From Sycon ciliatum (Eukaryota > Porifera > Calcarea > Leucosolenida > Sycettidae): 64,000 nucleotides of DNA. The notes beneath the pieces were generated by a model. That model made no database searches. It was given only the letters and a program-made list of their open reading frames with translations, and was not told the origin of the DNA. The stretch spans positions 14,896,897 through 14,960,896 of the forward strand of contig NC_088654.1 of the NCBI RefSeq assembly GCF_964019385.1, written 5' to 3'. Below, piece by piece: positions 4,129 to 57,622 of the stretch. Position 1 is the stretch's first letter. Each line of letters opens with the position of its first letter. The translations under genes were made by a program, and so were the position numbers.

Positions 4129-4442
4129 TCCGGGCACCCCGACCATCATGTCCGCGCTGCACAACGCACCACAGCCGTGACCAATGCCCACAGTATTTGG
4201 CAGGGCCACATGCTCCAGCTGGCACCAACACCAGCCGTTCTACGCAGCCATTTCTGGCCGGGGCGGGCAGCACCCGCCAGATCTGCCTCAACTTCAACCG
4301 TGGCCGCCCATGCCAACACCAGCCCTGTGAACGCTTGCACGTCTGCTCAACCTGCGGCGACCGAGGTCATCCCGCCGCTCGCTGCACCGACGACGATCGC
4401 CGGGGACCCCGCCAGACGGACAAGCCCGTCGCAGCGAAGTAG
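4086..4442 (+). CDS. Gag C-terminal part with cysteine/histidine knuckles
   Basis: This frame overlaps the end of the preceding frame and carries two clusters. The first is CPRC-x7-QC (about residues 22-34). The second is the segment CLNFNRG-x3-C-x4-C followed by HVCSTCGDRGHPAARC (about residues 68-104). The 'C-NFN-G-C ... H-C-x2-C-x4-H-x4-C' layout is typical of DIRS Gag C-termini and presumably binds RNA. It ends just upstream of the RT start at 4474. It is best read as the 3' part of the gag at 3220-4128. Confidence 0.65.
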   Translation: MGRNRPKPLEPAPLIRAPRPSCPRCTTHHSRDQCPQYLAGPHAPAGTNTSRSTQPFLAGAGSTRQICLNFNRGRPCQHQPCERLHVCSTCGDRGHPAARCTDDDRRGPRQTDKPVAAK

Positions 4443-4473
4443 TCTCCCCACGCCTCTGTACATAGCCCGCCTA

Positions 4474-6045
4474 ATGACTCTTCTGCCTCGTATTTCTAAT
4501 CGTGTCCTCTCTGACTTTATCCTTAATGGCTTGCAACACGGGTTCCCCATTGGCCACTCTGGTGCTTCTGTATCTATCATCTCCGGCAACCTCCCAACTG
4601 CCATTGAACATGCTCAGTTTGTACAACAACAAATTGCTGACCGGGTCCGACGTGACGAATCGGCCGGTCCTTTCTCTGTCCAGCCTTTCCACCCATTTGT
4701 ATGCTCTCCGCTCGGCGTAGTGCCCAAGAACAACGGGAAATTCCGCCTCATTCACCACTTGTCTTACCCTGACCGTATGTCTGTCAATGATGGAATAAAC
4801 AAGGATTCGTTCTCCCTACATTATGTCACAGTGGACGATGCCATTGAGCGTCTGCAACGTCAAGGTACCGGTGCCTTGATGGCGAAGCTCGACATACGCA
4901 ATGCTTTTCGACTGGTCCCGGTCGCACCCACTGCATACCATTTGTTGGGTTTCCAGTGGCAGGGCCAATTCTACTATGACAAAGTACTGCCATTCGGGCT
5001 GAGGTCAGCACCCTACTTGTTTAACTGCATTGCGGACGCACTTTGCCAGATAAGCTGTGAACTGTTCCAGGTTCCCCACCTCCTGCACCTTCTGGACGAC
5101 TTCTGGCTCTGTGGCCCTGCAAACTCAACGCTATGTGCGCAGCGTCTGAACGTAGTCCTCTCCGTATTCCGCTACCTGGGAGTTCCCATTGCCGACGAAA
5201 AGACAGTCGGCCCAACCTCCTGTCTCACCTTCCTGGGCATCGAACTGGACTCCGTCCAGAAAGTGGCTCGTCTCCCACAGGACAAGGTTGACGACATCCG
5301 CTCCAGACTATTGGCCTTTCGCCAACGCCAATCCTGCCGTCTACGGGAGCTTGAACAGCTGTTGGGCAAGCTGAACTTTGCCAGCCGCGTCATCACGCCG
5401 GGCCGTACATTCATGCGCCGACTGTACGATGCCACGCGCAACGTTTCCAAGCTCTACCACCGCATCCGTCTCTCCCCAGAATGTCATCTGGACCTTCTTT
5501 GGTGGTCTCACCTACTCGATGGCTGGAATGGCAAGTCATTCTTCCTCGATCTCCAGGAGACTCTGGCCAGCGACATCCTGATAGAAACTGACGCATCTGG
5601 CGCCATTGGGCATGGTGCAGTTTACGGCACGCATTGGTTCGCCGACACCTGGTCACCACAACACACTCCGCTCTGCATTACGTTCAAGGAGCTGTACCCC
5701 ATCTGCATTGCATGTGCTACGTGGGGCCACCAGTGGTGTCGCAAGCGTATCCGCTTCCATACCGACAACGAAGCTGTCGCCGCTGTTCTCAAGTCTGGCA
5801 CCAGTCGCTGCCCTAATGTGATGTCACTCCTACGGCAGCTCTTCTTCATCTGCGCCAAGGGTAATTTTATGGTCACCGCCCGTCACATATCGGGAACTAC
5901 CAACATCCTTGCTGACGCTCTCTCCAGGCAAGATTTCAAGCGATTCCATTCGTGCCACCCTACCGCCGCTCACATGCCCACTCCCGTGCGTGCTCTTCCG
6001 TCCATTCCTGGGGAGACTTCGGCCGTGTCTTGCACAGCCGAGTGA
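4474..6045 (+). CDS. Reverse transcriptase / RNase H (PAT-like DIRS)
   Basis: The protein is 523 residues. I chose the ATG that begins MTLLPRISNR because copy 2 starts at the same place, although the frame is open further upstream. RT: PLGVVPKNNGKFRLIHHLS (fingers), AKLDIRNAFRLVPV (motif A), LPFGLRSAPYLF (motif B), and LLDDF in place of the usual YxDD (motif C). RNase H: IETDASGAIGHGA, ITFKELYPI, HTDNEAVAAV and ISGTTNILADALSR carry the D-E-D-D residues. The frame is intact, with no internal stop. It makes DNA from the element RNA. The recombinase normally encoded downstream is missing, so this copy could move only with help from another element. Confidence 0.88.
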   Translation: MTLLPRISNRVLSDFILNGLQHGFPIGHSGASVSIISGNLPTAIEHAQFVQQQIADRVRRDESAGPFSVQPFHPFVCSPLGVVPKNNGKFRLIHHLSYPDRMSVNDGINKDSFSLHYVTVDDAIERLQRQGTGALMAKLDIRNAFRLVPVAPTAYHLLGFQWQGQFYYDKVLPFGLRSAPYLFNCIADALCQISCELFQVPHLLHLLDDFWLCGPANSTLCAQRLNVVLSVFRYLGVPIADEKTVGPTSCLTFLGIELDSVQKVARLPQDKVDDIRSRLLAFRQRQSCRLRELEQLLGKLNFASRVITPGRTFMRRLYDATRNVSKLYHRIRLSPECHLDLLWWSHLLDGWNGKSFFLDLQETLASDILIETDASGAIGHGAVYGTHWFADTWSPQHTPLCITFKELYPICIACATWGHQWCRKRIRFHTDNEAVAAVLKSGTSRCPNVMSLLRQLFFICAKGNFMVTARHISGTTNILADALSRQDFKRFHSCHPTAAHMPTPVRALPSIPGETSAVSCTAE

Positions 6046-6261
6046 CGGAAGCCCACATGCAAACTGCCATGAAAGCTGGCAGCACCGGTCCTGGGTAAGC
6101 GCTGATCAGACAGACTGAGCCCACTTATTGTGGGTGCCAGAGCATAACCGAATGCCACCTATGTACCGACTGTACACTCAGTAACTCAATATCACTCTAC
6201 TATTGTCCACAATCTGTGGCACCCCCTCTACAGTTAACAGTGAATAGGAGGTTCTCTATTT

Positions 6262-6573
6262 GGGGAGTCAACCTTGCTTACCAGGCTCCTCATACGGCTC
6301 ATTCAGCCTCTCACACTCAGACGGCTCACTCAGCCTCGGCTCACTCAGCCTCTCAATACGGCTCACTCAGCCTCCGCAGCCGGGCCCTGCCCGGCTGCCT
6401 CCATACGGCTCACTCAGCCTCCGCAGCAGGGCCCTGCCCAGCTGCCATACACACACATTCACACAGCTCTAAGCTGTCACTCACTCGGAGCCTGGCAAAG
6501 CAATTGACAAACCCTCCTATTCCCCAAACTGGTTGCTCGTTGTGTGAGTGCGGCATGCAGATGCTTGTGTTAA
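6262..6573 (+). repeat. Split direct repeat B1
   Basis: 312 bp, repeated at 6859-7170 at the same length. It starts GGGGAGTCAACC and ends CTTGTGTTAA. It contains a degenerate internal array of CTCACTCAGCCTC-type units (6295-6425), which opens long but meaningless frames. Confidence 0.75.
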
Positions 6574-6574
6574 A

Positions 6575-6727
6575 TGATTTTTTTGCGCACGCGCAAAAAT
6601 ATGTTAACACATAAGGCGCATGCTCTGTTCCCAACAAACTCTCACACGCTCATTGTTCTCCGAAGTCCACTGTTCCTGACTTCAGTTCTTGCTTTGTCCG
6701 CATTGGCAGTGGATTTCTTTCTCAACC
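6575..6727 (+). repeat. Split direct repeat A2
   Basis: Near-identical to A1 (3037-3188), with one extra T in the initial T run and a few substitutions. It directly follows B1, giving the B1-A2 junction that in PAT elements templates the circular intermediate. Confidence 0.75.
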
Positions 6728-9945: not shown

Positions 9946-10468
9946 CTATAATTGAGCAGAGATTTTAGCAACAAAATTATCCATCGACGTGCTGGTCTTG
10001 GCCTGCGTTTGTAATGTTGCCCAAAACACATAGCCATCAAAGATCGGGGATCTAGTGAATAGGGTGGAGGCAGCGCGTGGGAGCCTTAGTGAGTTCCGGG
10101 TATTCCGTGTTTCGGAGAACCAATTATAAGCCTGCATATGAAAGGGTATTTTATTTAGTAATATTTTATGTATGAGAACACAAAGCTGGTACTTATGTCG
10201 AGTGGAAAGGGGACTGATCTTGGCAATTTCGTAAAGACTAGCGGAGGGAAAGCGACGATCTTTGCTAAATAAGATTTGAAGGAGCATGCGGTTATGGGTT
10301 TCTAGCTTGTTCAATACAGTAGTAGTTATGCCAGACCAAGCTGTATCACAGTAGTCAAGTAAGGGCAATATATAGCAACGATAAAACAAGCTTTTGCAAG
10401 AAAGAGGAAGATGTCTACAGTGGGCTTGAAGAGCCCCAAGCATGGAGCTTGTGCGGTTGCAGACATAC
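9946..10468 (-). pseudogene. LINE L-A RT C-terminal domain
   Basis: About 170 residues with the helical LINE thumb and tail: SLFYRCYILPLLDYCDTAWSG, then LPRAASTLFTRSPIF near the end, a motif (LPR-x3-S-x3-F-x2-SP-F) common to CR1/L2/Jockey-group LINEs. It is cut from the RT core by the LTR element inserted at 10469-12266. Across the insertion the four bases ATAC occur on both sides, and the frame resumes exactly if one copy is removed. Confidence 0.75.
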
Positions 10469-10809
10469 TGTAGTATCCCTGCCCGACCAATACGGAAGTA
10501 GTACGGAACTAATACGGAGCTTGCCTGATGTATATTTAGTGTATCTCCGTATGTAAGCGTACGTCGTCTGCTGCATAAAAGCGGCTGCGCATTTCTGTTT
10601 TGATGAAGATTAGATTAGATTAGATTGGATAGCAATGAAAGCTAACTCGAAGAATAAGGATTCAGCCTCTAGGTGAGCACCGGAAAGAAAGTTATTTATT
10701 TTGCCGCTTCTTCTTTCACTAACGATTATATCTCAGGTGTGTACTTGAAAGTAGAATAAAAGTAATTCTTGTTGATTTCACCGCGCCTACCACTCGGCTA
10801 ACCATTACA
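10469..10809 (+). repeat. Left LTR of the TRIM-like element
   Basis: 341 bp, TG...CA ends. It contains CTGCATAAAAGCGG (TATA-like, about 10570) and a short GATTA repeat (about 10606-10620). About five substitutions separate it from the right LTR (for example AGTAGTACGG against AGCAGTACGG), roughly 1.5 per cent, so this insertion is fairly recent. Confidence 0.88.
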
Positions 10810-10810
10810 T

Positions 10811-10826
10811 TGGTGGCAGCGGTGTA
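10811..10826 (+). other. Primer-binding site of the TRIM-like element
   Basis: TGGTGGCAGCGGTG begins two bases after the left LTR. The TGG start is expected for pairing with the CCA end of a tRNA. Which tRNA is not determined. Confidence 0.65.
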
Positions 10827-10864
10827 GTTTAAAATAGAACGACGTGATTCGACCCCAGACCCCC

Positions 10865-10906
10865 ATGGCTCAACCTGCTGCGGCTCCCTGCGACGAATCA
10901 AGATGA
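10865..10906 (+). CDS. 13-codon upstream ORF with ATGA stop-start overlap
   Basis: This is the first ATG of the interior. It reads a 13-residue peptide ([13 protein letters not shown]), and its TGA stop overlaps the ATG of the signal-peptide ORF as ATGA (10903-10906). Such an overlap can allow reinitiation. It could also be the remnant of the original gag start of the parental element. Confidence 0.4.
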   Translation: MAQPAAAPCDESR

Positions 10907-11340
10907 GAATCATGTTTCTTGCCTTCCTGGGCTTGGCCCTGCTTATTAGCTTGCCGCACAGCCAGGGTGCTAGCGTGGATCACCCTTCTCTCCGCACGGC
11001 ACACACTGGAGACTCTGATGGCGATTCCAAGCGACCCGCTACCTACATGTATACTACCGGTGGTGATGGCGAAGCTGATGAGGACGACAACAGGCAGGCT
11101 GGTACCCAAGACAAGGAGGGTATTCCCCAAGACCAGCAGCGTTTGATTTTCGCCGGCACGCAGTCGGAAGCAGGAGCCCACTCTTCACTTGGTACTTCGC
11201 CTCCGTGGTGGGATGCAGATTTTCGTCAACACTATTCCTGGCTACACCATCACTCTTTACGTCGCGCAAAGCGATGCTATCGACAATGTGAAGAACACGA
11301 TTCAAGACGAGGAGGGAGGTCAATCAGGTCATTTGTCTGA
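10903..11340 (+). CDS. Signal-peptide protein joined to a ubiquitin fragment (captured ORF)
   Basis: A 145-residue frame. Residues 1-22 form a classical signal peptide ([20 protein letters not shown], small residues follow). Residues 24-69 are hydrophilic and acidic, with GDGEADEDD. Residues 70-91 (11110-11175) are ubiquitin positions 32-53: [18 protein letters not shown], with Lys48 replaced by Thr. After that the ubiquitin coding continues in a different frame, because about 11-12 codons (ubiquitin 54-65) are deleted, and this frame ends in unrelated sequence. I do not recognise the N-terminal protein. It looks like a secreted precursor. Intact start, no introns visible, consistent with capture from an mRNA. 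Confidence 0.6.
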
Positions 11341-11437
11341 CGCCGAGCTAGCCGCTCTGAGTGACCGGCTCCACCAAGATGAAGATAAAACCTGGCTTGC
11401 TCTCCGCCGTAGCTCCAGCCGCCGCCGTGGTTACTAA
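11183..11437 (+). pseudogene. Ubiquitin-derived module (positions 67-76 then 1-36) with novel C-terminus
   Basis: In frame 2, 11183-11212 encodes [10 protein letters not shown] (ubiquitin 67-76). It runs directly into [15 protein letters not shown]..., i.e. the next ubiquitin unit, positions 1-36, to about 11320, as in polyubiquitin. Lysines 6, 11, 29 and 33 are replaced (N, Y, T, E), while Lys27 stays. After residue 36 the frame continues with a hydrophilic stretch ending [10 protein letters not shown] and a stop at 11435. There is no ATG in frame before MQIF. If translated with the preceding ORF it needs a frameshift, so I treat it as broken. Confidence 0.7.
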
Positions 11438-11925
11438 CGCTGATTCCAGGTATGGCATTTTCTTTCCTGTCTTCCTTCAGTCTCCCTGTTCTCTTCATTC
11501 TTCCTTTATGCGAGTGTGTGAATCCAGTTTAGTTTGGTAGGCGTCTGATCATGGTGAGCCACGGCTTACCCAGCTAACGTGGGACAATGTGTGTGACAAC
11601 GCCCCTTATAGTTATAGTGTATTCAGTTAGGTTTTTGAACTGCGATGTTCCTGGCGGGTTGTGCCAGCGTTGTGCAGCAAGAGTGCTGTAGTTTTTCAGG
11701 TCCTATTTGGAGGACAGTTCTTTCCCCTTTTGACCCCGCGAGATGGTGTGAACTTGGTGTGCTTTTACTTCTACTTTATGATTTGTTATCAGTTCATTTC
11801 TTCTGTCTACTCTAAACGTTATCATTTCCGATATAATTTGCCATCTTTCGGTTGACGCTGTGTTCGTAACTCTTCACTAATTTTTTGAAAATCACGAGGG
11901 CGTGATAATCTGTAGGAAGGGAGGG
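11438..11925 (+). other. Non-coding 3' interior of the TRIM-like element, ending in a polypurine tract
   Basis: No coding is seen. TTACTAACGC-x6-CAG near 11433-11450 and a pyrimidine-rich TTTTCTTTCCTGTCTTCCTTCAG-like tract near 11457-11480 resemble branch point and 3' splice sites. The polypurine tract AGGAAGGGAGGG is at 11914-11925, immediately before the right LTR. Confidence 0.5.
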
Positions 11926-12266
11926 TGTAGTATCCCTGCCCGACCAATACGGAAGCAGTACGGAACTAATACGGAGCTTGCCTGATGTATATTTAGTGTA
12001 TCTCCGTATGTAAGTGTACGTCGTCTGCTGCATAAAAGCGGCTGCGCATTTCTGTTTTGATGAAGATTAGATTAGATTAGGTTGGATAGCAATGAAAGCT
12101 AACTCGAAGAATAAGGATTCAGCCTCTAGGTGAGCACCGGAGAGAAAGTTATTTATTTTGCCGCTTCTTCTTTCACTAACGATTATATCTCAGGTGTGTA
12201 CCTGAAAGTAGAATAAAAGTAATTCTTGTTGATTTCACCGCGCCTACCACTCGGCTAACCATTACA
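11926..12266 (+). repeat. Right LTR of the TRIM-like element
   Basis: 341 bp matching 10469-10809. It ends CATTACA at 12266 and is followed by the second ATAC target copy (12267-12270) and then LINE L-A coding sequence. Confidence 0.88.
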
Positions 12267-12280
12267 ATACTGCACATGGG

Positions 12281-12951: not shown

Positions 12952-13399
12952 GGGCGTCGGAACCGCACCGGCCGGGGCGGCCATGGCCGCCCCACTTTTT
13001 CGGCCTCTTTTTTTTTTTTTTTTTTTTTTTTTTAGCACACTGCAACAAAGCGCGATGATCTCAGCGCAAACGTGGCAAATCCTTGTCCCCGATCGTGGTT
13101 TGTTGCAGAATCAAAAGTCCATGTACACTAAAATGGCACCAAATGCCTGGGAATGCTTGCAATTGGCTTCAATTTTTGATTTTTTTCCCAGGGGAGGGTA
13201 ATGTTTGTCCCCGATCGTAGCATCTTCTTGGTTTTTTGCAGTATCAAAAAGTCTTTCATTGTAGTTACCGTACACTGAAATGGCACCAAATGCCTGGAAA
13301 TGCTTGCAATTGGCTTTAATTTTTGAAATTTTTTCCCGGGGAGGACCCCCCGACCCCCCTTCCATGGCTGCCCCACTTCCAAAATCGTTCCGACGCGCC
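12952..13399. mobile_element. Small TIR element inserted in LINE L-A
   Basis: Left end GGGCGTCGGAAC...GGGGCGGCCATGG and right end (inverted) GGCGCGTCGGAACG...GGGGCAGCCATGG form imperfect terminal inverted repeats of about 35 bp. Inside are a T run (13010-13033) and two diverged direct repeats sharing AATGGCACCAAATGCCTGG (from about 13130 and 13278). No coding. The target duplication is not clear. It separates the two RT halves of LINE L-A. Confidence 0.6.
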
Positions 13400-21853: not shown

Positions 21854-22055
21854 TGTGATATCCGTGCTAGTGAGCTACCTCACGTGATAGATCATTATCT
21901 TTCTACTCCTCTACTCTAAGTTGTATCAGCCGCGCATGCTTTTCCGTTGTGCTGCTGAGCTTCTCTGTCGTTCTAGTTCGACGTTCTAGCTTTGATCTTG
22001 AAGTCAACAGTTCCCCTTTTGTCTTGTCCTGAACTGCTCTGGTGTGATCATAATA
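21854..22055 (+). repeat. 5' LTR of Gypsy-1
   Basis: 202 bp. TG start but a TA end instead of CA. An inverted CACGTGA-like motif is near the start. Apparently identical to 26302-26503. Confidence 0.88.
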
Positions 22056-22057
22056 TT

Positions 22058-22071
22058 TGGCGACGAAGTCC
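22058..22071 (+). other. Primer-binding site of Gypsy-1
   Basis: TGGCGACGAAGTCC, two bases after the LTR. The TGGCGAC start is also seen after the LTR of the element at 48449-53375 (minus strand), suggesting the two use the same or a similar tRNA. Confidence 0.65.
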
Positions 22072-22088
22072 TTGATTCAGCTGCCACG

Positions 22089-25000
22089 ATGAGCACAGTA
22101 AAATCATTGAACCCGTTTGATCTGGAACCGCCTGAGTCGGTTGGCCCTCGTTGGGAGAAATGGCTGGCTCGTTTCGATAATTATTTGATTGCAGCAAACA
22201 TCACGGAAGACGAGCGGCAGAGAGCCCAGCTCTTGCACGGTGGCGGTGAGGACGTGTTTGACGTCTACCTCACCTTTGACAGCAGTAGCATTACAAGTTA
22301 CGACGACTTGAAGGATGCTCTGACGGCTCACTTCAGTCCGAAGCGCAACAGGGAATACGAGGTCTACTTGTTCCGTCGTGAGAAACAATCTCAGTCGGAG
22401 ACCCTTGATAGCTACGTAACTCGTCTTAGGCGTTTGGGCAAGCACTGTCAATTTGCAGATATGGACACAGAGCTAAAGTCTCAGGTCGTACAGCACTGTG
22501 TGTCGTCGAAGGTACGTGAAAAGGCTTTCATGGAGAGCAGCATGTCGTTGGCAGACCTCCTTACTTATGCACGTTCAGTGGAAGTCACGATGTCGTCTGT
22601 GGCAGCCATGGCCGGGGCCAGCAGCTTCAGCAAGCCTGAACATCCCCAAGTCCATAAAGTGGAGAGGCGACACCCATCAAGTCGTGACCAGCCCAGTCCT
22701 TCCAGTAAGGCCGTTCGCAAATGTAGCGGATGCGGGGGGAAATGGCACGACAACCGCTCGGATTGCCCAGCATGGGGCAAGACGTGCAAGTCCTGCAGCA
22801 GGTCGAATCATTTTGCAAAGGTATGCCGGTCGAAGGCTGTGCATCAGTTTTCCGAGCAGAGAGCCCCGGAGTTCGCATCACCTGACCAGACGGCGGAATA
22901 CAGTGCGGAGCTGCACCACACCAGTTGCTCTGGTCATGTGCGTTCCAACGTGGATCCTTATATGTGTAGTGTGAGTCTGGTTGGCACCCCTGTTGTGTTT
23001 GAGATAGACACCGGAGCGGCAGTAACAATAATCAACAAAGCGGAGTACCAGACACTGGCGTCGAAAGATACCAAGCAGCAACTCCCCAGTCTGGAGACGA
23101 ATGACCTGCCGAGCCTTAGGTCGTATGCTGGCAAGATCATACCAGTTATTGGTCGTCTCATCTGCAATGCCCGTCATGCGAAGAACTCGGCTCAGCTGAC
23201 CATGTTTGTCGTCGAGGGTTCTGGTCCGAATCTGTTGGGTAGAGACGCGCTGCAGACGCTAAAGCTCAACTGGAACCGAGTCTTCAATGTCACCGGAGAT
23301 CTGAGCAGTGACCTCCTGAGCAAGCATCCTGATGTTTTCAAGCCCGGACTAGGCACCTGGAAGCACGGCAGTGTCAAGCTTGCAGTCGACCGCAATGCTA
23401 GACCTCGCTTCCTGAAAGCTCGCTCTGTGCCTTATGCTCTACAGTCTGCCGTGGAGAAGGAGCTGGACAAACTAGTCGACAACAATGTCATTCAGCCAGT
23501 CGAATTCGCTGAGTGGGCAGCACCGATTGTGCCAGTTCTCAAGAGCAATGGCCAAGTCCGCATCTGTGGTGATTACAAGTGCACTGTTAACCAGGCAGCC
23601 AAGACAGATAAGTACCCATTGCCGAACATAGAGGATTTGTACGTGAAACTTGCTAATGGCTGTTGCTTCACCAAGCTGGACCTCAGTCAAGCTTATCTCC
23701 AATTACCACTGGATGAACAGTCTAAACTTCTTACCACCATCAACACCACGAAGGGACTGTTTGTGTACAACCGACTGCCTTTTGGTGTGTCTTCGGCCCC
23801 GAGCATATTTCAACGTACGCTCGACCAATTGCTAGCTGGAATACCAATGGTCGTGATCTACTTGGATGACATCCTTGTCTCTGGCACAACTCGTGAAGAA
23901 CACGACAAACATCTGAACATGGTTCTGGAACGTCTCAACGCAGCTGGATTGCGTTTGAACCGCACCAAATGTTCATTTGCAAGGTCCTCTGTGACATTCT
24001 TAGGTCACATCATCGATGCATCTGGAATTAAGCCCACCAAGGAGAAAGTGCAAGATGTCATTGATGCAAGGGCTCCTACCGACGTCCAAGAGCTGAGAAG
24101 CTACCTCGGACTAATCAACTACTACCACAAGTTCATTCCTAACCTGAGCTCAGTACTTGCTCCGTTGTATGAACTATTGTCTTCCAAGAGTTGGGACTGG
24201 TCTCATCGTCAACAGTCCGCATTCGAGAGTAGCAAGAAGCTGCTCATTGACTCACCCGTCCGTGTGCATTACGACCCTAAACTACCAATTATTGTGAGCT
24301 GTGATGCCTCACCGTACGGCATTGGTGCAGTTTTGTCGCATGTTGTCAATGGCGAGGAGCATCCGGTAATCTTCGCATCGCGTACCCTGTCGTCAGCAGA
24401 ACGAAACTACGCACAGATTGAGAAGGAAGGCCTCGCCATGGTTTTCGCTGTCAAGCGATTCCACAAGTACCTGTATGGCCAATCATTCACTCTTCAAACA
24501 GACCACAAACCTCTGCTGGGTTTGTTCAGCGAGTGTCGGCCCGTTCCTGCTATGGCCAGCGGTCGTATTCAGCGTTGGGCGCTGATGTTAGCCAACTATG
24601 ACTATGAGCTACAGTACAAGCCCGGCAAATCGAATGGAAACGCTGATGGTCTCAGTCGTCTGCCGGCACCAATGCCCGAATTCCAGGTTCCCGTGCCGGC
24701 TGAAACAGTTTTGTCAATGACTGTTTTGGACGGAACTCCCGTAACATCATCGAGCGTTGCGCAATGGTCTCGCCGTGGTCCAGTGCTTGCATTAGTTCTT
24801 AAGTACGTCCAGGAAGGCTGGCCTAACGACGTGCATAGTGATTACCAAGTGTACTACCGTCGTCGAAGTGAACTCTCCATCATCGATGGGTGCTTACTGT
24901 TGGGGTCTCGCGTTGTCATTCCGCCCCAAGGCCGAGAAAAGTTACTGGAAGAGTTACATTTCAGCCATCCCGGCATAACCAGAATGAAGTCGCTCGCCCG

Positions 25001-26147
25001 CAGCTACGTCTGGTGGCCATCGATCGATGCCGAAATTGAACTCAAGGTCCGCAGCTGTGAGCCATGTCAAGCAACCCAGAAGTCTCCAGCACTACAGCCA
25101 TTGCATCCCTGGGAGTGGCCAGGCAAACCCTGGACCCGACTGCACATTGATTATGCAGGCCCTGTGGAAGGCAAGATGCTACTTGTGATCGTCGACAGCC
25201 ACAGCAAGTACATCGACGTGCATGCCGTTCCATCTGCTACGTCGACAGCTACCATTGGCAAGCTTCGTGAGTGTTTCGCTACACATGGTCTTCCGCAACA
25301 GCTTGTCTCGGATAATGGCTCAGTGTTCACCAGCTCGGAGTTTCAACAATTCTGCTCAAGTAACGGTATCAAGCATACCTTGGTTTCACCCTACCACCCA
25401 GCAAGCAACGGTATTGCTGAACGAGCAGTTCAAACAGTCAAATCCGGCTTGAAGAAATTGTCAGGTGCTGGTGGAGACCTAGCGTCACGGTTACACCGCT
25501 TTCTGTTTCATTATCGCTTAACGCCTCAGTCAACAACAGGCCAGTCACCATTTCAGCTGCTTATGAACCGCACGCCACGTTCTCGTCTTGACCTGACGTT
25601 TCCAGATATATCAGCACGTGTCTTGAACAGGCAAGGTGCTGCTGTTGACCGTCGCACAGCTCGGGCGTCGGATCTCTGTTGTGGTGATGCTGTTTGGGTG
25701 ATTAACTTCACATCGACGCCTAAATGGATGCCTGGTGTGCTGGAAGAATGTCTTGGTCCAGCCACGTTTACTGTACGTCTGGATGATGGTCGCATATGGA
25801 AGCGCCATGCTGATCACATTAGACGCCGTCTTCCGTCCGAGGGAGGAGAAATGCTACCCGAGAGTGCAGGCATATCCGACCGGTCATCACCGCCATCAAC
25901 TTCAACTTCAACTTTGGCAACTGCACAGCCGCCGTCACATGCAGATGCCGAATCACCACAGCCGTCACAGCCAGAGGTTGCCGCCAGCCGCCAGGATGTG
26001 GAATCAACATCGCTATCCTCTTCTGCATTTGCTGCACCTTCTGCTGAATCTTCTACTCAGTCTTCTGCTATCTCTGTTAATTCTCCTAGCTCTAATCTGC
26101 GCAGGTCTACACGCTCAAGGAAGTCCCCTGATCGTATGAACTTGTAA
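22089..26147 (+). CDS. Gag-Pol polyprotein of Gypsy-1
   Basis: 1352 residues from the first ATG after the primer site (MSTVKSLNPFDLEPP). Gag: helical capsid-like region (15-170) and two knuckles, CSGCGGKWH-x5-C and CKSCSRSNHFAKVC (about 215-250). Protease: FEIDTGAAVTI (about 308). RT: LDLSQAYLQLPL, LPFGVSSAPSIFQ, YLDDILVS. RNase H: VSCDASPYGIGAVL, AQIEKEGLA, LQTDHKPL. Integrase: H-x3-H ... C-x2-C zinc region (HFSHPG to CEPCQ), LHIDYAGP, LVSDNGSVF, GIAERAVQ (D-D-E), and a GPY-like C-terminal end (LGPATFTV). The tail is Ser/Pro-rich, without a chromodomain. Gag and Pol are one frame without stop or shift. All enzyme motifs look intact. Confidence 0.93.
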   Translation: MSTVKSLNPFDLEPPESVGPRWEKWLARFDNYLIAANITEDERQRAQLLHGGGEDVFDVYLTFDSSSITSYDDLKDALTAHFSPKRNREYEVYLFRREKQSQSETLDSYVTRLRRLGKHCQFADMDTELKSQVVQHCVSSKVREKAFMESSMSLADLLTYARSVEVTMSSVAAMAGASSFSKPEHPQVHKVERRHPSSRDQPSPSSKAVRKCSGCGGKWHDNRSDCPAWGKTCKSCSRSNHFAKVCRSKAVHQFSEQRAPEFASPDQTAEYSAELHHTSCSGHVRSNVDPYMCSVSLVGTPVVFEIDTGAAVTIINKAEYQTLASKDTKQQLPSLETNDLPSLRSYAGKIIPVIGRLICNARHAKNSAQLTMFVVEGSGPNLLGRDALQTLKLNWNRVFNVTGDLSSDLLSKHPDVFKPGLGTWKHGSVKLAVDRNARPRFLKARSVPYALQSAVEKELDKLVDNNVIQPVEFAEWAAPIVPVLKSNGQVRICGDYKCTVNQAAKTDKYPLPNIEDLYVKLANGCCFTKLDLSQAYLQLPLDEQSKLLTTINTTKGLFVYNRLPFGVSSAPSIFQRTLDQLLAGIPMVVIYLDDILVSGTTREEHDKHLNMVLERLNAAGLRLNRTKCSFARSSVTFLGHIIDASGIKPTKEKVQDVIDARAPTDVQELRSYLGLINYYHKFIPNLSSVLAPLYELLSSKSWDWSHRQQSAFESSKKLLIDSPVRVHYDPKLPIIVSCDASPYGIGAVLSHVVNGEEHPVIFASRTLSSAERNYAQIEKEGLAMVFAVKRFHKYLYGQSFTLQTDHKPLLGLFSECRPVPAMASGRIQRWALMLANYDYELQYKPGKSNGNADGLSRLPAPMPEFQVPVPAETVLSMTVLDGTPVTSSSVAQWSRRGPVLALVLKYVQEGWPNDVHSDYQVYYRRRSELSIIDGCLLLGSRVVIPPQGREKLLEELHFSHPGITRMKSLARSYVWWPSIDAEIELKVRSCEPCQATQKSPALQPLHPWEWPGKPWTRLHIDYAGPVEGKMLLVIVDSHSKYIDVHAVPSATSTATIGKLRECFATHGLPQQLVSDNGSVFTSSEFQQFCSSNGIKHTLVSPYHPASNGIAERAVQTVKSGLKKLSGAGGDLASRLHRFLFHYRLTPQSTTGQSPFQLLMNRTPRSRLDLTFPDISARVLNRQGAAVDRRTARASDLCCGDAVWVINFTSTPKWMPGVLEECLGPATFTVRLDDGRIWKRHADHIRRRLPSEGGEMLPESAGISDRSSPPSTSTSTLATAQPPSHADAESPQPSQPEVAASRQDVESTSLSSSAFAAPSAESSTQSSAISVNSPSSNLRRSTRSRKSPDRMNL

Positions 26148-26301: not shown

Positions 26302-26503
26302 TGTGATATCCGTGCTAGTGAGCTACCTCACGTGATAGATCATTATCTTTCTACTCCTCTACTCTAAGTTGTATCAGCCGCGCATGCTTTTCCGTTGTGC
26401 TGCTGAGCTTCTCTGTCGTTCTAGTTCGACGTTCTAGCTTTGATCTTGAAGTCAACAGTTCCCCTTTTGTCTTGTCCTGAACTGCTCTGGTGTGATCATA
26501 ATA
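26302..26503 (+). repeat. 3' LTR of Gypsy-1
   Basis: 202 bp, apparently identical to the 5' LTR. It is followed by the second CTCCC, which merges into a run of C (26504-26518). Confidence 0.88.
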
Positions 26504-33200: not shown

Positions 33201-33851
33201 TGTAGCTTATATGGTTTAAGTTAGAAATACAGCAGTCAGCCAGCAAGTACAAAATGAGAAGTTTGCACCTATCCTGTGTGTGAAAATAATGTATGTGTGA
33301 AAGGCAGTGGGCGATGAATGTGGTACTGTGTGGATGAACGTGATGGTGCGTGCGTGTTGCCTTATTTTAGAGTGTGAGTACAACACCAATTTCTCTTTGT
33401 TAACATGCATTGACAAATAGGATTCAGGCCTTTGGCCTCTGGTTGGTGGATCTAATCTATCCTCCCCCACCGTTTAGGAGCCGCATTTTACGGGCAAACG
33501 GAATACAATTGACAATGGCATGGCGAATGATTAGAACACAACACCAAAAAAATGAAAATAGTTGTATGTGTAAACGGTACTATTTGGTAGGGGAAAAATC
33601 AAAAGTCCCTAATCCCCTTTTGACATCAAAATCAATGAAAAAACGCAAAAAACGAGAGAGAAAAGGCAAACAAAAAATACAAAGGCACTGTCCTGCCCAT
33701 CATCATCTCCAAAACCTCACAGCCGGCCCTCCGAGATTGCCAACTCTCGCAATGCATTCACAGGACGGTGATATGATGTTCCAGCACCGCGGATGCACAT
33801 GATCGCCGACCGCAACAATGCAAAAGCCCGTCGACACCGGATTTACGTCAT
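33201..33851. other. Unassigned, with one orphan frame at 33410-33802
   Basis: The 130-codon plus-strand frame has a Lys/Arg-rich centre and no domain I recognise. It lies outside clear repeats and could be random. No other content seen. Confidence 0.35.
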
Positions 33852-33949
33852 TGTAACAGGTTTAATCAAACTTGAAAAGTAAGAGGCCTGGTTGAGCGCG
33901 CCTCGACCAGTTATATGCAAAATGTGATAGTATACATGTGGCAATGGCG
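33852..33949 (-). repeat. 3' LTR portion shared with the 5' LTR
   Basis: 98 bp identical or nearly so to 38671-38768. Beyond 33949 the two LTRs are unrelated (here CATCCCCCTCCTATGG...), and no CTGTTACA boundary is found before the chromodomain frame at 34148. Confidence 0.7.
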
Positions 33950-34147
33950 TCATCCCCCTCCTATGGAGAGGAAGGAGCTTATAACCCAAATGCTCAAGTG
34001 GAATAGAGTACAATAAGCGCAAACACGTGCGAGACGAAAAAGGCTTCGCACTGAAGTAACACAATAAGACGACTGAAACTCCATGCAAATAAAGTGTAAT
34101 AAGCTCAACAAATGTGTAAGGTGAAACTAGAAGTTCAACTGCAAAAC

Positions 34148-34480
34148 TCAGCGGGCAGAAGCCAAGGTTTTGTACTTCTGAAGTGGAACAATGTCATTAC
34201 CAGATTCATCCAACAAATAATGTTCAGGCTCCCAAGTGGCATCAGAGTAGCCTTGCCACTTGACTAGGTACTGAAGCTGATTCTGCCGGCGGCGGTGACT
34301 GAGAATGTTCTCCACCACATAGCGGGCATGACCATCAAGGTCCGTGATAGGCGGAGGCGTAGGCTGTCTCCTATTAGGAATAGCGTTCTTCTCGTAGGCA
34401 CGGAGTGCCGACACATTAAATACCGGGTGACAGCGGCTGGTATGAGGCAACTTGAGCTTGTAGGCATTCGGGCCGACCAC
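34148..34480 (-). pseudogene. Integrase C-terminal end with chromodomain
   Basis: 110 residues: VGPNAYKLKLP, HPVFNVSALRAY (the integrase GPY/F-type end), then YVVENILSHRR, LQYLVKWQGYSDATWEPEHYL. The last part is a chromodomain: Y-x-VE-x-I, YLVKW-x-GY, TWEP. It would direct integration to particular chromatin. It is separated from the integrase core by frame breaks at about 34490-34530 and a TAG near 34725. Confidence 0.85.
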
Positions 34481-34487
34481 ATGGGTT

Positions 34488-36977
34488 TTAGGAAAGGGGC
34501 CAAACCACTTGGGGGCGTAATTTATGGGATGGTCGGTCCCGAGCTTCAGGAGTCAGGAGGAAATCCCGGTAGACCATTACCAAATCTCCCACCTTCAGCT
34601 TTCCCTCGACCCTTGTCCGATCTGCATAGAAGGCCTGACGAGCTTGAGCTGCCACTAGCGCATCTTGTGAGATCTTGACCGCGTCTTGTCTTGCTTGCAA
34701 CCAATCAGCTGAATCTCTGCCTCCCTAAATAGGGTTGAGGAAGTCGGGTGGTGCTCTGGGATTTAGACCGTAATTTAAGAAGAACGGTGTGTTTCCTGTA
34801 GATGATTGAGTAGCGCTGTTGATAGAAAACTCACAGAGAGGTAGGAGCATATCCCAGTTATCTTGTTTATGATTTACAAAAGCCCTCAGCACATCCTCTA
34901 CTATTCTGTTTACTCGTTCAGTTAGGCCATCTGTCTGAGGGTGATTGGCAGTACTAAATGCTAGTTTCGTTCCTAAGCGATCAAACAATTCCTGAAAAAA
35001 TGCTGCCGTAAATCTTGGATCACGATCACATACAATACTAGAACTCAAACCATGAAGTCGAAATACATGTTGAATATACAGATCAGCACTTCCTTTAGCG
35101 TCAATAGTAGAGGAAGTAGGTGCTAAATGTACACACTTTGTCAAGCGGTCTACAAATACATATATAGCATCATGACCTGTGTCGGTCCTAGGCAAACCCA
35201 TGATATAATCCATCGAGATATCCGCCCACGGCTGACTGGGCACTGGTAAATTCTGCAAGAGACCAGTTTTTAGCTGGCCGCCTTTAACTCGTTGGCAGAC
35301 GTCACATGACTTGACAAACGCCTTTACATCCAGTCCCATTCTGGGCCAATAGAAATATCTAGCGAGTCTGAAGTAGGTGCGATCTCGACCGGGATGCCCC
35401 GCAGTCACACAGTCATGGTATTCTTGAAGCAGGGCGAGTCGGAGTTTGCTACTCTTTGGAATGCATAACCTGTTCTGTGGTGAAGATCTGAGATAAAGAT
35501 AACCGGGTGTTTCATTTAGAAGGTAACGGTCGTGCAGATTGTCATGGCTTGAATTTTTCAGTCTCCTGCTAATGGGAGCAAGATCCTTGTCGCACTTGTA
35601 ACCGCTGACAATTAACTGCGCTAAGTCTGGATTAATCTCTAGGGTATGCTCTATGGCATTCAACTGAATGTTAGGAGGATGGGATAACCCGCCTATTTCA
35701 GAATCACTGAACAGATCTGGACGGCGTGAAAGCGGGTCGGCAATGTTTTTCTTTCCTGGTTTGTGAAAGACCGTAAAGTCATAGTCAGCTAAAAACTCTA
35801 CCCATCTTGCATCACGCTTGGTGAGAGTCGGTTTGGTTCGTAAATAGACAACACCCATATTATCAGTCATCAGGTCAAAGTGGCGGAATAGATAGATTCT
35901 CCAGCACTTTAATGCAAATACCACAGCCAACGTTTCCCTCTCGGCCGCAGTATAGTTGCGTTCTGCAGCTGACAGTTTCCGACTACAATAGGCTACGGGA
36001 TGCAAATCCATATCTTCTCCCTGCTGCAGGAGCACACCCGCCACGGCAAAGTCACTTGCGTCAGTTTCTACCGTGAAGCTTTTCTCAACATCGGCCAGTT
36101 GCAACACTGGCGCCTCGAGTAATGCTGATTTTAGAGACTCGAATGCCTTCTGTCTAGCAGCGCTCCATTCAAAGCGTGAATTTTTTCCGGTGATTTCTTC
36201 TAATGGACGAGAGATGGTCGAGTGTCGATCTATGAACCTTCGGAAATAGTTTGCAAAGCCAAGAAACTTCCTCACATCAGTTACTGATGACGGAGTTGGC
36301 CATGTTTCCACAGCACTTATCTTCTTGGGATCAGGGGAAATTGATGTGCCGTTGATTTTATGCCCCAAGAAGAGAACTTCTCTCACGCCGAATTCGCATT
36401 TAGACTGTTTGCAATACAGCTCACTATTTCTAAGTGTTTCTAGAACTGTTTGAAGATGATGCTGATGATCTTCCCAGGTCTTGCTGAAAACTAGAATGTC
36501 ATCCAAGAATACTACAACGAATTTTCGGAGATGCGGTTGCAGAATAGAGTTCATGAGTGACTGAAAGGTGGCCGGGGCATTAGTCAGCCCGAATCCCATG
36601 ACTCTAAATTGGAAGTGGCCGAACGGCGTATTAATGGCCGTCTTAGAAACATCCGAGTCTTGAATTCTGATTTGATTGTACCCCGACCGCAAGTCCAACT
36701 TGGAGAAATATGCACTGCCCTGGATCGTGTCGAATAAGTCATCAATATTAGGAAGACAAGCTTTGTTTTTGATCGTAATTCTATTCAATTCTCGCCAATC
36801 GCACACCATTCTCAGAGTACCATCCGACTTTTTCACAAAAAAACACAGGTGCACCGTATGGCGACTTACTTGGCTCAATGAATCCCTTCTCAAGTAATTC
36901 TGACAGCTGTGACTGGAGCTCGTCCATCTCTGGTTTCGGCAGGCGGTAGGCGGGTCGAGACGGTGGTCTGGCTCCAT
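34488..36977 (-). pseudogene. RT-RNase H-integrase of the chromodomain element
   Basis: 36977-34725 is open (about 750 codons, the first 40 out of frame). RT: LDLRSGYNQIRI, MGFGLTNAPATFQ, FLDDILVF. RNase H: VETDASDFAVAGVL, AAERETLAVV, LMTDNMG. Integrase: H-x3-H-like TAGHPGRDRTY to CDVCQR, DISMDYIMG, IVCDRDPRF, LTERVNRIVED (D-D-E). A TAG stop follows NPI, then the same frame continues from 34722 to about 34490 with LVAAQARQAFYADR and VGDLVMV. A one-base indel in the A run at 36836-36842 separates it from the protease frame. Confidence 0.88.
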
Positions 36978-37803
36978 CTTCTATCTGGATTTCATGGTCG
37001 ACTGGTCTCTTCGGTGGAAGCTCATTCGGCAGCTCGTCTGGAAATAAATCCTGGTACCTCTTGAGCAGGTTCTGGATGTCTTGTTGCTCTGATTCCTGGA
37101 GTTGTGGCCCGGAACGATTCTCCTCGTTTGCAGCAATGACCCATGCAAGAAACCCCTCGGCTCCACTCCTCAGGGCATGACGAGCTTGTCGGCCACTGAT
37201 AAACATGCTTTCCACAGATGGCCGGTCGGCTGTCGGCGGGTTAGCTGAAGGCAATTTGGCAACAAAGGGCTCACCGTCCAACTGAACTTCGTTCGTACGG
37301 AAGTTGATGCTGGGGTTGTTCCTTGTAAGCCACGGCTTGCCAAGAATAGCGTCGTAGCGAGTCAGGGGGTACACAGTAAAGTGCTGTTCCTCACTGAAGC
37401 CCCCGACTGTCACCCTTAGCGTGCGTGTGGAAATCTGCGGGACCTCGCTGGTCGAGCCGTCCGCCAATGTTACGCTCAGCACTGCTGAGCTTGCATCCGT
37501 GTCAAGATGATGCTTTCGAACAAAACTGTCTGCAATGAAGTCATGCGTCGAACCGGAATCTATCAGCATCACTGCACGGCGACCGCCGATCTTTCCCTGT
37601 ATGCGCAGTAGGTCGTGTTCAGGTTCATTGCCGACGCTGACGTTGCTGACATGACACCTTTCTGCAACGGGACAATTTCCTACAGCTATGGGTGTCTCCG
37701 GCTCCGTAGGTTCCTGGAGAGCAACGTCTTCAACCTCCAGAGCTCCGAACCGGTTAGCGACTGGTACCGGCGTGGGCGCTTGGGTCGTCGCCAGTAAGCG
37801 CAC
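36781..37803 (-). CDS. Aspartyl protease and start of RT
   Basis: The protease motif VMLIDSGSTHDFIADSF is about residues 79-95, with the second conserved block YDAILGKPWL near 150. The C-terminal third is the RT N-terminus (HEIQIEDGARPPSRPAYRL, LLEKGFIEPSKSPYGAPVFF) and runs into the frameshift at the A run. Begins right after the Gag stop at 37812. Confidence 0.8.
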   Translation of the reverse strand: MRLLATTQAPTPVPVANRFGALEVEDVALQEPTEPETPIAVGNCPVAERCHVSNVSVGNEPEHDLLRIQGKIGGRRAVMLIDSGSTHDFIADSFVRKHHLDTDASSAVLSVTLADGSTSEVPQISTRTLRVTVGGFSEEQHFTVYPLTRYDAILGKPWLTRNNPSINFRTNEVQLDGEPFVAKLPSANPPTADRPSVESMFISGRQARHALRSGAEGFLAWVIAANEENRSGPQLQESEQQDIQNLLKRYQDLFPDELPNELPPKRPVDHEIQIEDGARPPSRPAYRLPKPEMDELQSQLSELLEKGFIEPSKSPYGAPVFFCEKVGWYSENGVRLARIE

Positions 37804-37811
37804 CCCCTTTC

Positions 37812-38657
37812 TTACTGGCGACCAGCGTTTGGGTAGCGCTGTCCACCCTCAGTACAGCCTTTAGCGAGGTGGCCTGGCTTCCTGCAAGCAAAGCAGTGTC
37901 CCATTGCTCGCAGTTGGACACGCTCTTGGTCCGTCAGCTTGCGGAGGCCCTGAGTCTCACCACGGAAGCTGGGCACGGAACGCGACTCTCTACTGGCTGG
38001 TGGCCCCGACGCCGGTGGCCCTGACGACTGCTCCACGGTGTTTGCTGCCATGACAGCTTGCTCCAGGGTACGTGGATGCTCACGCATGACCTGTCGCTGG
38101 ATGTGCGGCACTAGACCCCTGACGAACAGCAGCGCTCTGGTGTGGTGGTCGATTTCCGGCACTTGCAGGCTGAGGCGAGTGAAAGCAGCATTGTATGCGT
38201 CCAGCGACCCGCGCTGCGCTGCGGAAATTAGTCCCATACGCGATGTTTCCTCGTTGTGCCGTGGTCCGTACACATCGCCAAGTGCCGCTTTCAGAGCCGG
38301 CCAGTCGGAAAACACTTGGTTAGCTTCCAATGCCGCTATCAACCAAAGACGAGCGTTTCCAGTCAAAAATCCTGCCGCGTAGTCGACCCTCTGTGCCGCA
38401 TTTGGGAGCGCCAACGACCGTAGGGTCATGTCCATTGCAAACGTCCATTCTTTGAATGTAGCGGAATCTCCTCCAAACACAGGCGGCTCTTTCGTAAGGC
38501 GGGGTGTTGGCTCCCACGGTTCCGAGTTCGGATGTATCGTTCGGTTTCCTTGGCTAACGCGCTGAGCGGTCTTGGTATCGTTTATCAGCCGAACGACGAG
38601 TACGAGGAGCGTAAGCAGAGGGACGAGAACACCTGCCAAAAGCAGAGTAGGAACCAT
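37812..38657 (-). CDS. Gag of the chromodomain element
   Basis: 281 residues, ATG overlapping the primer site. The first 22 residues are hydrophobic (LLLAGVLVPLLTLLVLVV), unusual for Gag and resembling a membrane anchor. Then a retrotransposon Gag domain (about residues 55-200; GNARLWL, LKAALGDVYGP, FVRGLVPHIQ) and a zinc knuckle CFACRKPGHLAKGC near the end. Intact. Confidence 0.8.
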   Translation of the reverse strand: MVPTLLLAGVLVPLLTLLVLVVRLINDTKTAQRVSQGNRTIHPNSEPWEPTPRLTKEPPVFGGDSATFKEWTFAMDMTLRSLALPNAAQRVDYAAGFLTGNARLWLIAALEANQVFSDWPALKAALGDVYGPRHNEETSRMGLISAAQRGSLDAYNAAFTRLSLQVPEIDHHTRALLFVRGLVPHIQRQVMREHPRTLEQAVMAANTVEQSSGPPASGPPASRESRSVPSFRGETQGLRKLTDQERVQLRAMGHCFACRKPGHLAKGCTEGGQRYPNAGRQ

Positions 38658-38669
38658 CCTCTGCTACCA
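38658..38669 (-). other. Primer-binding site of the chromodomain element
   Basis: TGGTAGCAGAGG on the minus strand, one base after the 5' LTR. Confidence 0.6.
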
Positions 38670-38670
38670 G

Positions 38671-38853
38671 TGTAACAGGTTTAATCAAACTTGAAAAGTA
38701 AGAGGCCTGGTTGAGCGCGCCTCGACCAGTTATATGCAAAATGTGATAGTATACATGTGGCAATGGCGCCAATGAAGGTGCTAATAGACAGGCGTAAGAC
38801 GCATGAGGTGCGAGGGAGTGTAAAGTTATAGAGAACAGGGGAAAACTGTTACA
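38671..38853 (-). repeat. 5' LTR of the chromodomain element
   Basis: 183 bp, TG...CA on the minus strand, bounded by the GTCAT duplication. Only 38671-38768 matches the 3' LTR. The U3 side (38769-38853) is different. Confidence 0.75.
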
Positions 38854-57511: not shown

Positions 57512-57622
57512 TGTGGAGCAATATTATCTCTCAACGGAAGTGTCTTTGCTGGTGTCTGTATGGTTCGGCTGAAGAGCGCGTGGTTGTGATGAGTTGGGAA
57601 TGCAAATTATTTTTATTATTAT

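Follow-up and report, generated by a model that had tools for sequence, protein, structure and literature searches.

Capture of host genes by long terminal repeat (LTR) retrotransposons is known from several systems. The maize LTR element Bs1 contains three transduced host gene pieces and a chimeric open reading frame (ORF), and a terminal-repeat retrotransposon in miniature (TRIM) of Arabidopsis carries a transduced P450 fragment, according to the part of the account available to us (PMC13317346). Among animals, the miniature element ta-TRIM has, in the accessible portion of its description, a leucine tRNA primer site, no ORF of more than 120 codons and a partner that is itself a proposed one; the same portion indicates that few pairs of a miniature element and its mobilising partner have been proposed (PMC4558846). 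The LTR-mediated retrocopies of animals described by Tan and co-workers, as reported in the available part of PMC5408686, consist of host mRNA placed between LTRs and are attributed to template switching that takes place at microsimilarities, inside virus-like particles. Here we describe an LTR element of the calcareous sponge Sycon ciliatum whose interior encodes a signal-peptide-like sequence, an acidic segment and part of a ubiquitin. It occupies positions 10469-12266 of a 64,000-nucleotide stretch, called the window in what follows, which corresponds to C13:14896897-14960896 of a 538-Mb assembly.

We hold with considerable confidence that this is a non-autonomous, transducing retroelement, probably of the Ty3/gypsy kind, which took up its cargo by template switching, is copied in trans, has been amplified and has exchanged its LTR shell. 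A preliminary description of the window had already proposed a trans-mobilised miniature element bearing a host-derived secreted ubiquitin chimera. That proposal is supported in part: the miniature element and its host-derived chimera are borne out, mobilisation in trans is very probable, and secretion would be a possibility. This assessment draws on the identification of a likely ubiquitin donor gene on contig C1 and of gag-bearing relatives for both of the LTR shells in which the cargo is found (type A, that of the window copy, and type B).

The 1798-bp window element is confirmed as a complete non-autonomous LTR retroelement, with the following features in window coordinates.

10465..10468, no strand: left target site duplication (TSD), ATAC, from the sequence; the right copy is identical
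10469..10809, plus strand: 5' LTR, type A, 341 bp, TG...CA, from pairwise comparison
10811..10824, plus strand: primer binding site TGGTGGCAGCGGTG, 1 nt past the 5' LTR, from a motif search
10865..10906, plus strand: short upstream ORF of 13 codons, whose TGA overlaps the next ATG (ATGA)
10903..10968, plus strand: signal-peptide-like N terminus, from the ORF list, the signal peptide judged by eye
10969..11106, plus strand: acidic segment, from the ORF list
11107..11317, plus strand: one ubiquitin monomer in circular permutation, residues 31-76 preceding 1-35, with 32 nt deleted at about 11167, from alignments
10903..11340, plus strand: main ORF of the window copy, 145 aa, out of the ubiquitin frame past the deletion
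11318..11437, plus strand: coding region of a basic-ended tail, from the ORF list
11438..11890, plus strand: 3' non-coding interior, the least variable of six regions
11891..11906, plus strand: perfect palindrome ATCACGAGGGCGTGAT before the polypurine tract, from the sequence
11914..11925, plus strand: polypurine tract AGGAAGGGAGGG, abutting the 3' LTR, from the sequence
11926..12266, plus strand: 3' LTR, from pairwise comparison
12267..12270, no strand: right TSD, ATAC, from the sequence

Most of the anatomy given in the preliminary description is borne out. The paired 341-bp LTRs, put there at about 1.5% difference, differ at five positions (1.47%), all of them transitions; the ATAC duplication, the primer site and the polypurine tract are all present; and no retroelement genes were seen in the interior, either in the ORF list or by Pfam searches with the two main ORFs. 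The interior was also said to encode a signal peptide, an acidic segment and ubiquitin, and these parts are indeed there, although in the window copy a 32-nt deletion prevents the ubiquitin from being read in one open frame. By eye, the 5' LTR also holds CATAAA and AATAAA motifs. The sequence TGGTGGCAGCGG, 1 nt past the 5' LTR, is the sole match in the window at up to one mismatch, where 0.35 would be expected; as at least one match arose in 28 of 100 shuffles, it is the position of the primer site, not its presence, that constitutes evidence. We assign TGGTGGCAGCGGTG to a leucine tRNA. In the B shell, as in both gag-bearing relatives, TTGGTGGCAGCGG also comes after the LTR, and the primer used for the interior probe of the ta-TRIM element also begins TTGGTGGCAGCGG in the available part of that paper (PMC4558846), in agreement with the assignment.

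The ubiquitin part is a single monomer cut at residues 31-35 and bounded by CAAGAC(A/G)AGGAGGG at 11107 and 11303, repeats that lie 196 nt apart in the window copy (228 minus 32). The deletion removes roughly residues 53-63 and shifts the frame, so that ubiquitin 31 to about 51 is read in the signal-acidic frame and residues 64-76 and 1-35 in a different one, ahead of the basic-ended tail. Pfam recognises ubiquitin in residues 69-86 of the 145-aa ORF (E 0.0057) and in the overlapping ORF 11189-11437 of the other frame (E 0.0008), both under the curated cut-off, and alignment with sequences from the PDB places the 10903-11340 ORF on ubiquitin residues of about 20-54 and the 11189-11437 ORF on LVLRLRGG followed by residues 1-35. 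Because of this shift, no single frame of the window copy encodes the chimera; the family ORF is nevertheless real. The deletion is absent from 25 of the 70 full interiors, and most of these undeleted copies encode a signal peptide, the acidic segment, ubiquitin 31-76 and MQIFVNTLPG or a near variant before a TAG, 124 aa in all, with some broken earlier; in one copy, L091, a sense codon replaces the TAG and the frame reads on into the tail, for 185 aa. A homology of the acidic segment and the tail themselves to ubiquitin, suggestive by eye, was rejected, with p 0.12-0.89 on protein shuffles and 0.13-0.65 on codon-shuffled DNA.

The host ubiquitin genes among the scored places comprise polyubiquitin genes on C1 (five units) and C4 (six units) together with two fusions to ribosomal proteins, located at C4:27730537 and C4:24139166, which we presume to be L40 and S27a. 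In L091, which serves as the undeleted example, the first unit differs from the C1 units at 12-22 of 138 nt, compared with 30-38 for the C4 and L40 units, and the second ubiquitin part differs at 18-24 of 105 nt from the C1 units, compared with 27-31. A C1 unit is the nearest host monomer for all 25 undeleted interiors, and these retain the host-type residues D24 (25/25) and T28 (23/25). The distances, together with D24 and T28, point to the C1 polyubiquitin gene of the host lineage, or its ancestor, as the most likely donor, and the search for a parental host gene that the preliminary description had advised has in this way yielded one for the ubiquitin part.

The same cargo occurs in a second shell. 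In L071, L072, L078 and L080 it is 85-91% identical across the portion of the interior that matches and is accompanied by LTR B, whose similarity to LTR A is confined to a stretch of about 60 nt; the B-shell copies with both LTRs (L072, L078 and L080) have, by eye, the 4-bp duplications CCAC, GCTG and ATAG. Among the 40 matches listed of 521 candidates for LTR B, at least 11 same-strand pairs lie at the spacing of the cargo copies (1.27-1.82 kb), and one pair, at C11:5625486-5631110, is 5.29 kb apart. This last locus is the B relative. It has a 667-codon open stretch with reverse transcriptase (RT; E 1.8e-37) followed by RNase H, a gag that begins MAQPNVPAVVPV (Pfam gag at E 4e-4, under the cut-off) and an LTR pair with one mismatch in 345. 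It shares with the cargo element the same primer site and a closely similar leader, its 35-nt 3' end is identical to that of L078 and L080, and at the position of the window palindrome both it and the B-shell copies have ATCACGAGGACGTGAT. A further possible LTR-B pair, at C7:6633876-6643453 with matches from 6633876 and 6643038, lies 9.16 kb apart around L071, which exceeds both a cargo copy and the C11 element, and is perhaps an element with a further insertion.

The A relative, at C9:11363480-11363960, has an LTR 95.6% identical to that of the window over 342 nt, the same primer site, and a gag frame of 294 aa without a stop that begins MAQPAAVPAAAA; sister gags at 41-59% were found among the best 150 of 1077 candidates scored in the gag search. 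The gag of both relatives opens ATGGCTCAACC (MAQPN.. and MAQPAA..), and the same codons open the short upstream ORF of the cargo element (10865..10906), which we read as a gag start fused to captured sequence. The capture junction would thus seem to lie a few codons into gag, and these first few codons are seemingly all that is left of gag in the window element. At L102 (C4:22676180-22677480) a type A gag, which contains one stop, leads directly into CCCATTACA-TTGGTGGCAGCGG and then the cargo, the product that would be expected of joint reverse transcription of autonomous and cargo RNAs. In the B-shell copy L072, at 1113-1198, the leader repeats the end of the LTR and the primer site, with two identical 22-nt stretches 64 bp apart, a possible further trace of template switching.

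We propose that the RNA of an ancestral gypsy element was packaged together with host mRNAs and recombined with host mRNA just past the first gag codons, most likely through template switching by RT at short similarities, in the manner described for LTR-mediated retrocopies (PMC5408686). Host-derived sequence would in this way have displaced gag and pol, one donor being the C1 polyubiquitin mRNA, and the one permuted monomer would be accounted for if the template had been switched twice at one and the same ubiquitin stretch. The capture product would have kept its LTRs, primer site and polypurine tract, with autonomous relatives in the same genome presumably supplying Gag, RT and integrase in trans. 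Amplification to high copy number would have followed, the cargo passing between the two LTR shells by like recombination. The ORF, if translated, would give a product that may enter the secretory pathway.

The copies are numerous. First-look candidates ranged from 559 to 1290 by query and at most 150 were scored; as only the best candidates are scored, the scored lists favour intact copies. When the whole element was used as query, the best 40 of 1290 candidates gave 50 listed rows, 41 of which span at least 98% of it. Among the best 150 of 982 candidates in a genome scan with the Pfam ubiquitin profile, 131 are half-ubiquitins, as judged from the profile range, 12 are whole host units and 7 are other host ubiquitin-like sequences or fusions. 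There is no stop in 112 of the 131 half-ubiquitin places, and the 32 of them whose sequences were compared all match the interior, L068 only partly. With the 68 signal-acidic residues as query, all 150 best-scored of 559 candidates match, at 88-100% identity, and 145 have no stop in these first 68 codons.

The full interior was examined at 70 places, 54 of which have two full LTRs. After removal of the 16 places without two full LTRs and of 18 segmental or tandem duplicates (the C7 cluster, the C226 array, L069, L070 and L073), 36 independent copies remain. Every one of these has a TSD (34 of 4 bp and 2 of 5 bp, with 28 different sequences; 0.14 copies expected by chance), and their LTR pairs differ by a median of 0.56% (range 0-4.7%), the difference being zero in six. 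For the work on variability, indels and substitution rates, the 70 interiors were merged at less than 0.7% difference into 48 representatives. In the C7 cluster (C7:12551000-12824247) 14 fetched cargo interiors lie within 0.7% of one another over some 270 kb, with a GTAC duplication wherever both outer flanks are readable, and this looks like segmental amplification of one insertion. Tandem LTR-interior-LTR arrays of near-identical units are found at C226:467736-475749 and C13:182517-187151, as expected from unequal recombination or insertion of concatemers.

These copies bear directly on two other explanations of the locus. An ordinary polyubiquitin pseudogene or retrocopy might have been inserted separately into one LTR element, the whole being a single decayed event; the broken ubiquitin frame of the window copy would fit this, but the whole interior is present at 70 places and moves with its LTRs, the TSD lying outside them in 36 of 36 independent copies. 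Moreover, one or two changes in the ubiquitin would be expected from the LTR difference, whereas more than 10 residues differ from the host, most of them common to other copies. We find this explanation hardly credible. The preliminary description had allowed both for such a pseudogene and for the possibility that other copies lack the ORF, and neither survives, the signal-acidic ORF being found at every best-scored place. A host gene family with solo LTRs at its flanks, rather than an element, could likewise explain why most scored places have an open ORF and why L068, compared with LTR A alone, has no LTR match and only part of the interior; the paired, near-identical LTRs with their TSDs, the fixed primer site and polypurine tract and the existence of two shells make it very improbable. 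There remain observations that weigh against our own reading, of a captured chimera mobilised by relatives. No host donor was found for the signal-peptide, acidic and tail parts. The sequence read comprises the LTR, primer site and gag in the A relative and gag, RT and RNase H in the B relative, the pol of the former and the integrase of the latter lying beyond it, and the flanks of the B relative (CACA and CACG) agree at only three of four bases. The frameshifting deletion is present in 25 of the 48 representative copies, that of the window included, and most undeleted copies end at the TAG, which is ubiquitin codon 11, in the second ubiquitin half. The ratio of replacement to silent rates (omega, or dN/dS) is 1.13 for the acidic part and 1.32 for the ubiquitin head. 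For the signal-peptide codons, with 37 replacement and 34 silent changes among the 48 representatives, it is about 0.42 (p 3e-4), a probability that is uncalibrated and not to be taken at face value since the 3' non-coding control, read in its three frames, gave 0.66, 1.23 and 1.25. The signal-peptide value is 0.37 in deleted and 0.45 in undeleted copies, so that any constraint here is independent of the ubiquitin frame. The dN/dS comparison that the preliminary description had suggested for the two parts thus lends some colour to selection in the signal peptide and none in the ubiquitin, and overall the signs of constraint on the ORF are weak and mixed.

Is the captured ORF then a gene of the element, or a passenger? 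It may have been captured once, never been useful and been kept only because amplifying elements carried it. The unconstrained acidic and ubiquitin-head codons would agree with this, as would the mean pairwise differences, which are highest of six regions in the signal-acidic part (7.3%) and lowest in the 3' part at 11441-11925 (2.7%), and the fact that the frame-broken deletion subfamily also includes young insertions, three of them with identical LTRs (L010, L014 and L017). The apparent signal-peptide constraint runs the other way, together with the indels, whose length is a multiple of three in 4 of 6 signal-acidic cases compared with 2 of 17 from the 3' part (Fisher p 0.02), the 145 of 150 scored places without a stop, though scoring favours intact ones, and the ATGA overlap, preserved in 45 of 48 representative A interiors (the failures are L031, L032 and L092, in the last of which a string search found no start) and in four of four B-shell copies. 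We put the chance of such a passive passenger at about even. A working retroelement gene, encoding a secreted or endoplasmic reticulum-targeted half-ubiquitin protein that aids the element or its partner, would draw on the same signal-peptide constraint and on the pattern of lysine loss. The family ubiquitin has lost K48, K63, K6, K11, K29 and the second K33, and most copies retain K27 and the first K33; K48 and K63 are gone from all 25 undeleted interiors, and lysines are lost at 6 of 8 positions compared with 9 of 73 for other residues (Fisher p 3e-4, a comparison chosen post hoc). In L091 and other undeleted copies, several of the replacement changes relative to host ubiquitin turn A into C on the coding strand, a pattern that may be an RT error signature and makes mutation bias a fair alternative for the lysine loss. 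Some of the lost lysines also lie past the usual stop, the acidic and ubiquitin parts are unconstrained among copies, and the deletion subfamily includes young insertions although it lacks the ubiquitin frame; a working gene is in our view unlikely. The more specific idea of an element gene whose signal-peptide-led half-ubiquitin, without the lysines of common chains and reinitiated through the ATGA behind a gag-derived mini-ORF, acts on a ubiquitin-dependent or secretory step of the host and so benefits the element is a long shot. Between cargo and gene, passive cargo is the more likely.

The window holds other retroelements. A full-length Gypsy element, its 1367-aa gag-pol uninterrupted, lies at 22044-26147, between 202-bp LTRs (21854-22055 and 26302-26503) that are 100% identical and flanked, by eye, by a 5-bp duplication, CTCCC; it is a very recent insertion, and its primer site differs from that of the miniature element. 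A second Gypsy, on the minus strand at 33849-38771, has a 104-bp terminal repeat (98%) and the primer site TGGTAGCAGAGGATGG, which we take to be that of the initiator-Met tRNA. Both were considered as mobilising partners and set aside, their primer sites differing by eye from that of the cargo element. Two copies of an RT element, 95% alike and in opposite orientation, lie at 4394-6578 and 57618-59789 and give the impression of being DIRS-like. The cargo element itself, judged by eye from the ORFs, looks to be seated in a minus-strand relic of the RT of a long interspersed nuclear element. Beside it, at 13093-13344 in this presumed relic, is a near-tandem duplicate whose units, about 105-119 bp long and 80% alike, adjoin 26 consecutive T.

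How does this element compare with those already described? Searches of viral contigs with both ORF halves and the junction of LTR and primer site, and of genome contigs with the LTR start, gave no match in collections that may omit records near the window genome; one viral contig (L001) that resembles 18 nt of the LTR, with 19 nt aligned, was set aside as chance. Among the open-licence papers listed for LTR ubiquitin, TRIM gene capture and LTR-mediated capture, no LTR element of this kind appears in the titles and abstract starts. Ubiquitin has been captured by cytopathic pestiviruses, viral ubiquitin occurs in baculoviruses, and a role of the insert is known there. The sponge element resembles these in being a selfish element that contains cellular ubiquitin, and offers a parallel to the viral captures in a retrotransposon, not a virus.

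With TRIM and ta-TRIM elements, as the available parts of PMC4558846 and PMC13317346 describe them, it shares paired LTRs, a primer site, a polypurine tract, the lack of gag and pol, a length below 4 kb and a proposed mobilisation in trans. The TG...CA repeats with target duplication, the primer site and polypurine tract and the absence of any gag or pol domain are all found here, and its 1798 bp and 341-bp LTRs fit the limit of 4 kb in the available part of PMC4558846, though not that of 1 kb with repeats of 100-250 bp (PMC6934838). TRIMs are, however, described in those parts as lacking coding sequence. Here the relatives have their LTR in common with the cargo element, and the latter keeps an ORF, which runs to 124 aa in most of the undeleted copies read and to 185 aa in one; with its ORF kept, this is not a strict TRIM. 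In Ty3/gypsy elements pol has RT, RNase H and then integrase; RT and RNase H come in that order in the B relative, where the integrase stretch lies beyond the sequence read, and the cargo element has no pol. Unlike the LTR-mediated retrocopies, which the available text speaks of as retrocopies and not as replicating families (PMC5408686), the cargo has increased in number and occurs in both LTR shells.

A close counterpart is maize Bs1, in which, as the accessible part of PMC13317346 has it, an ORF put together from several host genes likewise lies inside an LTR element. As expected of a gene-capturing LTR element of this type, there is an identifiable host gene, the C1 polyubiquitin gene for the ubiquitin part, and there is a relative with gag and pol sequence that shares the LTR and primer site. 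Bs1 differs in being a plant element with other donors, whereas the sponge element has a high copy number, two LTR shells, a cargo of ubiquitin and, in its own genome, gag-bearing relatives that share its LTRs. Gene capture by LTR elements is known, and what seems new is the combination of a ubiquitin chimera, a high copy number, two shells, and relatives and donor gene in one genome. Since the gene that donated part of the cargo, gag-bearing relatives of both shells, many copies of different ages and a locus that joins gag to cargo are all present in a single genome, capture, shell exchange and mobilisation in trans are here open to direct test.

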